A DNA stretch of 48,078 nucleotides. Source: Candidatus Bathyarchaeota archaeon (GTDB taxonomy: Archaea > Thermoproteota > Bathyarchaeia > Bathyarchaeales > SOJC01). Shown here in pieces: positions 6,225 to 14,284 of this stretch (within the stretch, counting starts at the first letter, position 1; every line of letters starts with the position of its first letter). Under the pieces are notes generated by a model. It saw nothing but the letters and a program-made list of their open reading frames with translations, was not told the origin of the DNA and made no database searches. Both the position numbers and the translations under genes were made by a program. The stretch spans positions 1-48,078 of the forward strand of contig JAOUKM010000009.1 of NCBI GenBank assembly GCA_029882535.1, given 5' to 3'.

Positions 6225-7061
6225 TTAGGGAAAAATCCTCTTCCAAAGTTTTTGCTTTTCCTTTTGCGTTAGCTCTCGAATTTCTTTTGTTTTCAAGTCG
6301 AGTGTTGCAATTAAAACTTCCTTTGGCTCTTTTTTACGTCTTAGAGTGGCCTTTATCGCTAGTATGACGGCTTCTTCTAAACTCATGTCAGCTTTATATC
6401 CCCCTTTCAAGACTCCCTTCGTTTCGTCACCACCTTTGCCTTCCATGCAAGCTCTGTACTCTTGGGATGCGCCTGCGCTGTTAATCATGAACAATCTCGG
6501 CCTGTTTTGAGAATCCAAGCCTCCAATTATCATGGCTACTGCCAAGGGTCGGAAACCCTTTTTTTGCGCGTAAGGCTGCATAAATAGAGTCAATCCCTTA
6601 GCCAATGCTTCGACATCTACGTTGGCGTTTTCTTTCTTGAGTATCCCTGTTTGTTTTTTTGCTTCTTCTAAGACGAGAAGAGAGTCTTGTTGTATTCCAG
6701 AAAATGCTATAGCTATTGTTTCGGTTATTTTGAATATTCGATAAAATGGATTTGGCAGTATTAAGAACTCATCGCTAGGTGTTTCTTTAGCTAGAACAAT
6801 GCCGTGGTTGCAGCATATACCCACCATTGTTCCACCTCGCTTCATAGATTCCATTGCATATTCTAGTTGGAATATTCTGCCATCTGGAGAGAACGCGGTT
6901 TCCACGTCGTAACCCTTTTGCAGTTGTGTTGGAACTGTGGAGAGGAAATATGTCAATGCTGTTCTTGCTAATTCCGCTTTGTTTCCTGCAAATCCCGCTT
7001 TTATCAAACTGTCTAGAGCCCTGTCTAAATCTTTCGGTATCACGAGTCTTACTTCAGGCAT
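6225..7061 (-). CDS. Proteasome alpha-like subunit with N-terminal ribbon-helix-helix domain
   Basis: A 278-aa protein. Residues 51-76 carry the proteasome alpha signature (GYDVETAFSPDGRIFQLEYA) with the Tyr, Asp, Pro and Tyr gate residues; the rest follows the alpha fold to LDLKTKEIREL. Residues 1-44 are an unrelated ribbon-helix-helix-like unit: strand EVRLVIP, helix KDLDRALDSLIKAG, turn FAGN, helix KAELARTALTYFL. RHH domains bind DNA as dimers; canonical archaeal alpha subunits have only a short gating peptide there. The alpha part is divergent: the YDRAITVFSP stretch is one residue shorter and the Lys that anchors the HbYX tail of PAN in Thermoplasma appears as Arg. ATG 7061 has a strong GGAGGT 8 nt upstream, so the fusion is translated as one unit. 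It may be a second alpha paralogue or a DNA-tethered proteasome homologue. Confidence 0.8.
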   Translation of the reverse strand: MPEVRLVIPKDLDRALDSLIKAGFAGNKAELARTALTYFLSTVPTQLQKGYDVETAFSPDGRIFQLEYAMESMKRGGTMVGICCNHGIVLAKETPSDEFLILPNPFYRIFKITETIAIAFSGIQQDSLLVLEEAKKQTGILKKENANVDVEALAKGLTLFMQPYAQKKGFRPLAVAMIIGGLDSQNRPRLFMINSAGASQEYRACMEGKGGDETKGVLKGGYKADMSLEEAVILAIKATLRRKKEPKEVLIATLDLKTKEIRELTQKEKQKLWKRIFP

Positions 7062-7108
7062 CCATCAAACCTCCATATAAACGGATAGATTTATCAATGA
7101 TCTACAAT

Positions 7109-7120
7109 CTTATAAATTTA
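7109..7120. promoter_or_regulatory. Shared divergent TATA element (alpha-like / AbrB genes)
   Basis: CTTATAAATTTA is a TATA match on both strands. On the minus strand it lies about 50 nt before ATG 7061 and predicts a transcript start near 7087. On the plus strand it predicts a start near 7140, which would favour ATG 7154 for the AbrB gene. A second plus-strand TATA-like GATTTATC (7087-7094) would instead serve ATG 7130. Confidence 0.45.
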
Positions 7121-7129
7121 TGTGGTAAA

Positions 7130-7363
7130 ATGCCCGTCAAAAGGGAAAACATAATGGAGATCATTGAGAATTTCTTCAAAACAAAAATCGACGAACGTGG
7201 GAGAATCTACATACCTAAATCTGTGAGACAAAGGTTTTCAATAAAGCTCGGCGAAAGACTCTATATTAAACTTGAAAACAACCACTTTAGCATATATACC
7301 GCAACAGCTATCAAGAAACTACAGCTAACCAGAAAGTTATCGGGGAAAGAAAATGTCTTCTAA
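7130..7363 (+). CDS. AbrB/SpoVT-type swapped-hairpin DNA-binding protein
   Basis: A small protein (77 aa from ATG 7130, 69 aa from ATG 7154) that is almost entirely one AbrB/MazE-like domain: FKTKIDERGRIYIPKSVRQRF followed by LGERLYIKLENNHFSIYTA. These domains bind DNA as swapped dimers and act as transition regulators or antitoxins. The frame is open much further upstream (from 6854) but that part is antisense to the alpha-like gene. The choice between 7130 and 7154 is unresolved; a GTGGT precedes the first and AAAGGG the second. It overlaps the next gene (CYTH) by 11 nt, so the two are surely translated from one mRNA, but no toxin domain is present. Confidence 0.7.
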   Translation: MPVKRENIMEIIENFFKTKIDERGRIYIPKSVRQRFSIKLGERLYIKLENNHFSIYTATAIKKLQLTRKLSGKENVF

Positions 7364-7886
7364 AAGCCAAAGGGTTCAACATGCAATGGTTGAGTTGAAA
7401 GCCAAAGTAGACGGTTTAGAGACGATTCGAGATAAGTTGATTCAATATAGCGCTAAGCAAGTTGGCACTTTTCATCAAATCGACACCTATTACAAAGTTC
7501 CGAAAGGTAGGTTGAAACTGCGGGAAGTAGAAGGCAAAAGTGATGCTGAACTAATATATTACGAGAGAGAAAACGTTGCAGAGCCAAAAAGAAGCTCTGT
7601 TTTCATTCTAATAATTCCACAACCTCAAGTCTTTAGACAGATTCTTGAACGAATCATGAAGATTAAAGTTGTGGTGGATAAGGTTAGGGAAATTTACTTT
7701 TACGAGGGTATTCAGATTCACTTGGATATTGTTGAAGGGTCGGGTTCTTTCATTGAATTTGAACGTATAACCTCCCAAGATTCAGAGCAACAAAAAAAAG
7801 ACCTCTCTAAGTTGGAGAAGCTCAGAGAAAAACTAAATATTAGCCCCCAAAGTTTAGAAAGGCTTTCTTATAGTGGTTTAATTTGA
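7353..7886 (+). CDS. CYTH-domain protein (CyaB-like class IV adenylate cyclase/thiamine triphosphatase family)
   Basis: A 177-aa triphosphate-tunnel fold protein. Typical elements are AMVELKAKV at the N-terminus, FHQIDTYYKVPKGRLKLREVEG, ELIYYERE, VVVDKVREIYFYEGIQIHLDIVEGSGSFIEFE. The family binds triphosphates with metal and hydrolyses or cyclises them; archaeal members are mostly unassigned. The hallmark ExExK is imperfect: the first Glu position is Met12, leaving M-V-E-L-K. That may reduce metal binding or reflect a variant. Translated with the AbrB gene (11-nt overlap) and convergent, with a 19-nt overlap, with the membrane operon on the other strand. Confidence 0.8.
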   Translation: MSSKSQRVQHAMVELKAKVDGLETIRDKLIQYSAKQVGTFHQIDTYYKVPKGRLKLREVEGKSDAELIYYERENVAEPKRSSVFILIIPQPQVFRQILERIMKIKVVVDKVREIYFYEGIQIHLDIVEGSGSFIEFERITSQDSEQQKKDLSKLEKLREKLNISPQSLERLSYSGLI

Positions 7887-11664: not shown

Positions 11665-13567
11665 GAGTTTCTAAAGTTTCAGGCGCCACCGCATCAATTT
11701 TAAATCTTCTTCTAAGAAAGTTCGAGACGCCTAGACACTTTGTCTTTTCACCGTGACAAACTATTACCTTCTCAGGCCTTGGCGTGACGCGATGAATGTA
11801 ATTAATAATCTGCCTCCTGTCTGAATGCCCTGAAAAGCCTTCAATTGACTCAACCTGAAGTCTTGCTTTTATAACTTCGACTCTGCCCTCATTGTTCACG
11901 ATAGGAGTTTCGGTCAATCCCTTTTGCACTCGACGCCCCAAAGTACCTTCAATTTGATAACTGACGAATATCACTGTGTTAAGTTTGTTAGAGGCTAATC
12001 GCTTGAAATAATCAATCACAGGTCCGCCCTCAAGCATGCCTGCAGTTGCCATAACAATACTTGGTTCTCCTTCCACTATTTCTTCTCGAGCGCTTGGATG
12101 CTCCACTATAGTAAAGTAGTCAGATTGAAACGGGTTTATTCCCTCATGTAAAATGCTGTTTCGAACCTCCCTAGCTAAATATTCCGGATAGGCTGTGTGA
12201 ATTGCAGTGGCTTCTGAAATCATTCCTTCAATAAACACTGGAGCCTCTTTCATTAATCCTCTTTTCATATAACCGTCAATAATCAACATAATTTCCTGAG
12301 CTCGACCAACTGCAGGCACCGGAATTATAACTTTTCCGCCGCGTTCTAATGTTTCATTTATTATTGACGAAAGCTTTTCTTCGGCAGCAATTCTTGAAGG
12401 CATAACATCTTGAGGAGCCCCATATGTACTCTCAGTTATTATTGTCTCTACTCTAGGAAACTCTGTGGCTGCCGCTTCGAGAAGAGTTGTTCTTCCGTAT
12501 TTATAATCTCCCGTATAAACAAGATTATGCAATCCTTCTCCAATATGTAAATGAGTTACTGAAGAGCCTAGAATATGTCCAGCGTTATGTAAAGTCAAAC
12601 GAATATCAGGCGATATGTCAGTTACGGCGCCATAACGCAACGGCAAAGTGTGAAGAACACATTTACGGACATCTTTCTGATTATAAGGGGCTGTAGAACC
12701 TTGTTTACTTGCGACATCTAAATAGTCTAATTGAAGCAAAGTCATGAGATTTGATGTGGGGGCAGAACAGTAAACTGGGCCGTCATAGCCGTATTTGAAT
12801 AGAAAGGGGAGAAAACCACAGTGGTCAAGGTGTGCATGGCTTATGATTACAGCGTCGAGGGTATCTATGTCAAATCGGGGTACGTCGAGCCGTGGGAAAG
12901 CATTGAGAGGGTTGGTTGAGCCAGGGTTAATGCCACAATCTAAAAGCACTTGGCTTTCTCTTGTTTGTAGGAAAATCGCTGAACGACCAACCTCTCGAAA
13001 TCCACCTAAAGCTGAAATTCTTACGTCACCTACTTCATGGATCATGGGTCGAAAAATTCTTTCACCTATATTGCGCAGTATCCTCTCACGTTCTTTGGTT
13101 TCTGAGTGGAGATAGTGACGCATGTGACTAATGATTTTTGATGCAATAGGAGAACTCCTCAAGATTTTAGGGCGCCATCTTGTTTCCTTTACAATCTCCT
13201 GCAATACCGCCCCGTTCTTTCCTATGACCAGACCTGGCTTCTTCGCATCGATTATGACTTCGCCAAGGCTTGGGTCAAAGTTTATGTTTGTAATTTCAGC
13301 TTCTTTAGGAACCGCTTTTCCTATAATCCTTATTGTGTCTTTTTCAGGTAATCTCACAGAAGGATCGGCTCTCACAACTATCCTCTTGCGAATTAAGCTA
13401 ACTATGTCTGCAATAATGGAACTCTGCTCAATCAGAATTTCGGGTCTTTTTGTGTAGACCGCTAATGCTGGGCCTTCAAATTCTATCCTAGTAACTTCTG
13501 CCTTTTCAGGTATATGTTGTAAGACTGCTTGGCTTATCTCGACTTTGCTCTTGCCAGCGGTTGTCAC
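11651..13567 (-). CDS. aCPSF1/FttA: KH-MBL-beta-CASP ribonuclease and transcription terminator
   Basis: 638 aa, the normal length for archaeal CPSF1 (FttA), the endonuclease that cleaves nascent RNA at U-rich sites to end transcription. Tandem KH-like domains cover about residues 1-150, with GLVIGKNGAVLQEIV at 112-126. The MBL core carries HAHLDH (244-249), then GHILGS, YTGDYKY and ESTYGAP. The beta-CASP part has PVPAVGRAQE, VMATAGMLEGGP and the distal EGFSGHSDRRQ, so all catalytic His/Asp positions look intact. The start is GTG 13567, overlapping the psmB stop by 4 nt (GTGA). This psmB neighbourhood is known in other archaea. The long G/U tract after pyrE is the type of signal this factor would use. 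Confidence 0.95.
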   Translation of the reverse strand: MTTAGKSKVEISQAVLQHIPEKAEVTRIEFEGPALAVYTKRPEILIEQSSIIADIVSLIRKRIVVRADPSVRLPEKDTIRIIGKAVPKEAEITNINFDPSLGEVIIDAKKPGLVIGKNGAVLQEIVKETRWRPKILRSSPIASKIISHMRHYLHSETKERERILRNIGERIFRPMIHEVGDVRISALGGFREVGRSAIFLQTRESQVLLDCGINPGSTNPLNAFPRLDVPRFDIDTLDAVIISHAHLDHCGFLPFLFKYGYDGPVYCSAPTSNLMTLLQLDYLDVASKQGSTAPYNQKDVRKCVLHTLPLRYGAVTDISPDIRLTLHNAGHILGSSVTHLHIGEGLHNLVYTGDYKYGRTTLLEAAATEFPRVETIITESTYGAPQDVMPSRIAAEEKLSSIINETLERGGKVIIPVPAVGRAQEIMLIIDGYMKRGLMKEAPVFIEGMISEATAIHTAYPEYLAREVRNSILHEGINPFQSDYFTIVEHPSAREEIVEGEPSIVMATAGMLEGGPVIDYFKRLASNKLNTVIFVSYQIEGTLGRRVQKGLTETPIVNNEGRVEVIKARLQVESIEGFSGHSDRRQIINYIHRVTPRPEKVIVCHGEKTKCLGVSNFLRRRFKIDAVAPETLETLRLR

Positions 13568-14226
13568 GCTTTTCTCCTCGTCTCAGACACCGTCTCCGCT
13601 ATGTCGTTTTTCTCTCCATCATCTAGTTCGCGGTAGCCTTCTTTATCAATTAAGCTTACATCAAAGCTGTCGCCACTTGCCGTGTTCCTTTTCATAGCTG
13701 CTTTCACGGCATGAACAACGATTGGTAGCAGCTTCTTTGTAGAAACTCCTTCTCGATATTTATCCTCAAGAACACCATAAGCTACTGGAGAACCTGAACC
13801 TGTAGCAACACATTTTTCCTCTGTTAAGCTGCCTAGAGGATCAAGCGAAAACACGTGAGAACCTGTATCGTCGACTCCTCCGATGAGAATTTGAGCAATC
13901 AATGGGGCATAGCGAGATGAGAATAGAATATTTGCGACTAGTCTAGAAGCGGCTTTTATTGGAATTGGTCTTCCAATATTCATTTTGTACAGTCGTGCAT
14001 TTGCTGTAAGTATATCAACAACTTGTTGTGCATCTGCGACGCTTCCTGATATTGTTATAGCAATGTGGTCGTCGATTTTGTATATTTTCTTTCCTTTTTT
14101 GTGGGCTATAAAAGTGCCCATTGTTACGCGGGTGTCTGAGGACAGAATTACGCCATCACTACAGACGACACCTACGGTGGTAGTACCTTTAAGGACTAAC
14201 TGATTTGATGTTTCACGCACTTCCAT
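13564..14226 (-). CDS. psmB: Proteasome beta subunit
   Basis: The catalytic 20S core subunit. The propeptide MEVRETSNQLVLKG (14 aa) ends at Gly before TTTVG, so autocleavage leaves Thr1. Mature Asp17 (SSDTR) and Lys33 (KKGKK) are both in place, as are the C-terminal GSGSPVAYGVLE and SGDSFDVSLID (Ser/Asp of the active centre). ATG 14226 has AAGGAG just upstream. A frame open to a TTG at 14271 would start upstream of the transcript start predicted by the TATA at 14285-14294, so I reject it. It is the first gene of an operon with aCPSF1, with a 4-nt overlap. The alpha-like gene at 6225-7061 is a possible but unproven partner. Confidence 0.95.
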   Translation of the reverse strand: MEVRETSNQLVLKGTTTVGVVCSDGVILSSDTRVTMGTFIAHKKGKKIYKIDDHIAITISGSVADAQQVVDILTANARLYKMNIGRPIPIKAASRLVANILFSSRYAPLIAQILIGGVDDTGSHVFSLDPLGSLTEEKCVATGSGSPVAYGVLEDKYREGVSTKKLLPIVVHAVKAAMKRNTASGDSFDVSLIDKEGYRELDDGEKNDIAETVSETRRKA

Positions 14227-14284
14227 GTTCTCCTTGAAAATCGAAAACGCTATTTTGCGATTATCTTCCAAAGGAAGTTAATTG

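Follow-up and report, generated by a model that had tools for sequence, protein, structure and literature searches.

A ribbon-helix-helix domain fused to a divergent proteasome alpha subunit and paired with an AbrB/MazE-like gene in Bathyarchaeia

The N-terminus of a proteasome alpha subunit is located at the axial pore of the particle, and ribbon-helix-helix (RHH) domains, as in CopG, Arc, MetJ and ParD, work as dimers. A gene on a 48,078-nucleotide stretch of DNA from a Candidatus Bathyarchaeota archaeon (the window; contig C9 of genome G000, which is 1.73 Mb and 97.5% complete) appears to join the two in one protein. A preliminary description, made from the letters of the window alone, read this gene as an RHH domain fused to a divergent proteasome alpha subunit. 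Here we ask whether that fusion is real, what its two parts are, and what such a subunit might do. The features are collected in Table 1.

Table 1. Features of the RHH-alpha locus, with positions in the window
Feature	Position	Strand	Remarks
RHH-alpha fusion gene	6225..7061	-	278 aa plus stop; orthologues in five other genomes
Ribbon-helix-helix domain	6924..7061	-	residues 1-46; strand about 3-8, helix A 10-21, helix B 28-48
Proteasome alpha-type core	6228..6914	-	residues 50-278; Y51, D52, P59 and Y68 kept; N-terminal Thr absent
Divergent promoter/leader	7062..7129	.	about 68 bp, between the fusion and the AbrB-like gene
Conserved palindrome TATCCGTTTATATGGAGG	7070..7087	-	arms TCCRT/ATGGA, 4-nt variable loop; overlaps Shine-Dalgarno GGAGG
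Candidate TATA-like box AAATTTATAA	7110..7119	-	about 50 nt upstream of the fusion start; weak, identified by eye
AbrB/MazE-like DNA-binding-type protein	7130..7363	+	77 aa; PF04014 E 1.7e-5

A fusion shared by six genomes

The open reading frame of the fusion begins with ATG and runs without interruption, opposite a plus strand that is rich in stop codons. A class-wide search recovered the full-length fusion in 6 of 257 Bathyarchaeia genomes, belonging to two families of one order, and three orthologues aligned from residue 1 in a search of 61 genomes. No further fusion was found in a phylum sample of 398 genomes, nor outside Bathyarchaeia in a scan of genome contigs. The other five copies are 51-64% identical to the window copy over the whole protein and 66-82% identical over the RHH part; the junction, the start context and 27 N-terminal residues are invariant across all six. 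Since the same full-length fusion is present in five other genomes, as the preliminary description had proposed to check, its recurrence exceeds chance and the fusion is confirmed as real. A mis-called start, a frameshift or a chimeric assembly of an RHH gene with an alpha gene, for which the missing single-sequence Pfam RHH match at threshold might have spoken, is scarcely credible and is ruled out by the shared junction and invariant residues of six independent genomes. The fusion also has its own Shine-Dalgarno sequence (GGAGG, 7070-7074), as had been described. In two genomes the start codon differs (ATA in G007, L008:1501; ATT in G003, L039:6001) with the Shine-Dalgarno sequence kept; because the PEVR codons just downstream are still present, this codon is probably the start, possibly a non-canonical one.

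Residues 1-46 alone fell below the Pfam RHH threshold (best RHH_8, E 0.17, in two orthologues), so profile-profile and fold comparisons were used instead. With hhalign, a profile of the six N-termini matched stand-alone RHH proteins of related genomes at 97.6% probability (E 3.4e-12; 40% identity across 42 aa); a control comparison with an AbrB profile gave 3%. A search of PDB sequences with the N-terminal profile yielded chance matches only. AlphaFold2 modelling of the whole protein, from an alignment without RHH rows, predicted helices at residues 10-21 and 28-48; the strand did not form in this monomer model, as expected when the dimer partner is missing. In Foldseek, a model of the N-terminus whose alignment included RHH rows returned RHH chains (e.g., ParD, NikR and VapB) as nearly all of its top PDB matches, with weak E-values (best 0.2). 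The predicted strand-helix-helix plan within about 45 residues is that of the CopG/ParD/MetJ type, and the reading of residues 1-46 as an RHH unit, from profiles and models together, is well supported. The preliminary description had named as adverse findings a profile search without RHH similarity, homologues starting at the alpha core with a poorly conserved N-terminus, or an assembly frameshift; none was encountered, and conservation is higher in the N-terminus than in the alpha core.

No segment of the fusion is more conserved or more constrained than the RHH head. In close pairs of orthologues, dN/dS was about 0.02 and 0.11 in the RHH (45 codons), against 0.14 and 0.13 in the alpha core and 0.21 and 0.29 in the AbrB-like partner discussed below. 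Three positions of the strand correspond in our alignment to those turned towards DNA in CopG-type RHH proteins: E3 and R5 are invariant and position 7 is aliphatic; because this face is not the typical basic or polar one, the predicted DNA binding of the head is uncertain. The closest stand-alone RHH in the same genome (E 0.003, 40% identity), at G000:C15:6383-6502 (L043), passes PF01402; it is CdrS-like and lies directly upstream of an ftsZ-like gene, which was identified by eye. CdrS-like/CopG regulators (PF01402) have the strand-helix-helix plan in common with the fusion head, but CdrS is a free, stand-alone protein of about 55 aa (PMC7439475), whereas the RHH of the fusion forms the N-terminus of a proteasome subunit.

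The alpha part of the protein (residues 48-274) carries both Pfam families that mark a 20S alpha subunit, i.e., Proteasome (PF00227; residues 73-238, E 2e-32) and Proteasome_A_N (PF10584; residues 55-71, E 1.9e-8), each above its cut-off. Solved archaeal alpha subunits align to it from about residue 48, and its predicted fold matches archaeal alpha rings. The gate anchors Tyr8, Asp9, Pro17 and Tyr26 (T. acidophilum numbering) are invariant in all six fusions. At the position of the catalytic Thr1 the fusion has Gly77, internal to the chain, so the subunit is catalytically inactive and not a protease by itself. Among 53 near-invariant positions of canonical alphas, 30 are kept and 23 differ in one or more of the fusions. 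Lys66 of the HbYX pocket, a Lys in all canonical alphas, reads R, Q, Q, R, K and K in the six fusions and is thus lost in four; the Arg noted earlier holds for the window copy but not as a trait of the family. One eukaryotic alpha pocket likewise does without this Lys (PMC13022661), so its loss does not exclude alpha identity. Sequence and model together make the identity of the core as a divergent proteasome alpha subunit well supported.

A search for a canonical psmA elsewhere in the genome, another check proposed at the outset, located one at G000:C5:48387-49061, adjoining an SBDS-type gene (named from sequence). This canonical copy makes the fusion a second, highly divergent alpha paralogue, as had been suspected, with 36-38% identity between the fusion core and its own canonical PsmA. 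Canonical PsmA (TIGR03633) likewise has PF00227 and PF10584, the gate anchors, an inactive nucleophile position and the alpha fold; unlike it, the fusion has a head of about 45 residues, an unconserved HbYX Lys and a TIGR03633 equivalog score of 165.8 bits against a cut-off of 287.35.

Two beta genes are present in the genome, one in the window (13564-14271) and one on contig C27. A beta gene is found no more than about 10 kb from the fusion in the window and in G007 (G007:C4:27504-27992); none is near it in the regions seen of G003 and G017. A beta fragment at G000:C51:6822-7070 (L005), near-identical to the C27 copy (L002), runs off its contig end and may reflect strain variation, duplication or MAG contamination. 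No PAN above the family cut-off was found in this genome; the best match of that search was a Cdc48-type ATPase whose C-terminus (...KPTTPVA) is without an HbYX motif (the loci concerned are G000:C5:52707-54284 and G000:C57:2801-3496). No conserved operon of the fusion with an ATPase or beta gene was found, its neighbours varying among genomes.

The divergent partner gene and its shared promoter region

Two features absent from the preliminary description are a co-conserved AbrB/MazE-like partner and a palindrome in the promoter region that it shares with the fusion. The partner scores 25.1 bits against a PF04014 (SpoVT/AbrB) cut-off of 24.7, and an orthologue scores 35.9. All six fusions face an orthologous gene, adjacent and divergent in each case. 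Across the 151 genomes of the order that were searched, orthologues (E below 1e-32) occur in the six fusion genomes only, the next AbrB outside this group appearing at E 2.5e-9. Such constant head-to-head pairing with the same regulator gene suggests that proteasomes or regulators are targeted to specific DNA sites.

The AbrB-like gene overlaps at its end with a CYTH-domain gene (window 7353-7886, plus strand), and a CYTH-like gene occurs in the opposite arrangement near the pair in G103 (L037 4969-5556), with none seen by the other four. Being near the pair in only two of six genomes, this neighbour was rejected as a part of it.

The motif TATCCRT-N4-ATGGAGG lies in the gap in six of six genomes, its first T being C in G103. 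In each genome five pairs can form between the arms (GU-tolerant in two sequences) around a loop of variable sequence; the chance of such a palindrome is about 0.018 per sequence, the six being non-independent through shared ancestry. The window site is the sole exact match in its genome. A regulon did not emerge from a genome search allowing up to two mismatches, which gave 23 sites and 15 for a reversed-pattern control, a count not far above it. An A/T-rich element similar to the candidate TATA-like box is present upstream of the other five fusions. Either the RHH or the AbrB-like protein may use the palindrome as its operator, or the palindrome may form an mRNA hairpin that masks the Shine-Dalgarno sequence.

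A candidate accessory subunit of the 20S proteasome

We tentatively prefer to read RHH-alpha as an accessory, inactive alpha subunit with an RHH domain on its gating N-terminus, i.e., a minor, autoregulated component of 20S particles that docks on DNA or on regulators. Assembly, DNA binding, autoregulation and targeting are steps that we infer as follows. As a minor subunit, RHH-alpha would be incorporated into 20S core particles, either side by side with the canonical alpha in mixed rings or within a special subtype, and the axial entrance of these particles would carry RHH dimers. The dimers may dock the particle onto DNA sites or DNA-bound regulators, with the AbrB-like partner as first candidate for a substrate, and could attach to the palindrome between the two genes, limiting RHH-alpha's own expression. 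Both beta genes and the canonical alpha are at hand as potential assembly partners, which supports entry into 20S particles. The preliminary description had pictured seven RHH units on one ring; this needs correction, since RHH domains are obligate dimers and an odd seven cannot all pair in a homoheptamer. With one head left unpaired, mixed rings or pairing across particles would be more natural. It is common for archaea to have genes for two or three alpha or beta subunits and to shift subunit composition with conditions (PMC13022661), and in H. volcanii, which has alpha1 and alpha2, alpha2 enters 20S subtypes (PMC2910475); because archaea mix alpha subunits in this way, an accessory alpha in a subset of 20S particles is favored.

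The single origin of the six full-length fusions, the constraint on the RHH, the kept gate anchors, alpha signature and alpha fold, a partner found in exactly the same six genomes and a palindrome conserved in all of them support this accessory-subunit reading. The drifted alpha positions, the HbYX lysine lost in four fusions and the atypical strand face count against it, as does the palindrome insofar as it may instead be an AbrB site or a hairpin over the Shine-Dalgarno sequence. The main rival, somewhat unlikely in our estimate, places the protein outside the 20S particle as a transcription regulator that borrowed an alpha domain for oligomerization or sensing and forms a two-regulator switch with the AbrB-like protein. 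An RHH more constrained than the alpha core, the low identity of that core to its own canonical copy, the unkept HbYX lysine and the constant partnership with another protein of DNA-binding type across a palindrome would all fit such a switch. Against it, all six fusions keep the gate anchors and the N-terminal alpha signature invariant, features that have no role outside a ring.

The RHH might otherwise be a protein-protein module only, with paired heads locking or linking alpha rings into latent or ATPase-independent proteasomes that never touch DNA. This is quite unlikely: the Glu/Arg/aliphatic strand face, the frequent loss of the HbYX lysine and the absence from this genome of a PAN above cut-off agree with it, but the invariant divergent DNA-binding-type partner and the conserved palindrome are left unexplained.

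Origin of the pair and comparison with known systems

In an unrooted alpha-core tree, the six fusion cores form one clade (support 100/100) on a long branch apart from the Bathyarchaeia alphas and from three other archaeal alphas, which indicates a single origin. These three served as outgroup, two of them rows from solved-structure alignments; the Thermoplasma row is a sequence that we take to be that of its alpha subunit. Among G000, G003 and G007, the canonical alphas share 85-88% identity; the fusion cores of G003 and G007 are 88% identical, and that of G000 is 48% identical to either. Family-consistent groupings of the fusions were mildly rejected (AU p 0.045 and 0.021), and the genes next to the pair are unrelated between genomes. 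G012, sister to G007 and sharing about 97% identity with it along the right flank, is without the fusion, and homology resumes 10 bp past the fusion stop. Patchy distribution together with tree conflict suggests that the fusion and the AbrB-like gene move as a horizontally transferred cassette; old paralogy with loss could be an alternative history. Beside the pair in G007, a dockerin-type gene has a short repeat on either side (L122 6260-6317, 7112-7149), and the same repeat occurs by a different dockerin-type gene at the corresponding place in G012 (L159 3173-3230).

The same pattern would accommodate a mobile, addiction-like regulatory cassette in which antitoxin-type folds, a ParD-like RHH and a MazE-like AbrB, spread together and tap the host proteasome. 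We consider this very unlikely, since a toxin gene is absent, PADLOC gave no match, mobile-element genes were not seen, no relative of the fusion was found in viral contigs, and MAG sampling or old paralogy with loss could also give the pattern.

Among known systems, Haloferax volcanii alpha2 (PsmC) is likewise an accessory alpha paralogue beside the main one (PMC2910475); unlike it, the fusion belongs to a separate lineage confined to Bathyarchaeia in the genomes searched. WPH, PHI, Anbu, BPH and connectase (PMC8665760) share its superfamily, but the extra domains of the homologues described there are C-terminal or inserted, whereas the fusion is a true alpha with an N-terminal RHH. The main text of a 2021 survey of proteasome homologues makes no mention of an RHH fusion. 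In the papers searched, no second alpha subunit turned up that bears a DNA-binding-type domain at its N-terminus, and the literature on proteasome alpha subunits with RHH or DNA-binding domains or on Bathyarchaeota proteasomes, subscription papers aside, yielded no such fusion. To our knowledge, no other proteasome core subunit has a DNA-binding domain, and RHH-alpha would be the first if it binds DNA.

Extra archaeal alpha and beta subunits are common and their purpose is mostly unknown (PMC13022661). With a recognition domain of its own on the gate, a fixed regulator as partner and a probable operator, RHH-alpha offers a concrete, testable case of subunit-based proteasome specialization, possibly one that needs neither ubiquitin-like tags nor a dedicated ATPase. 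In its most specific form, which we regard as unlikely, mixed 20S rings would be tethered to operators through the RHH-alpha heads and would feed DNA-bound regulators, for example the AbrB-like protein, directly into the pore. If true, such a DNA-tethered proteasome would be a transcription switch made by fusing a repressor domain to the gate of a protease.
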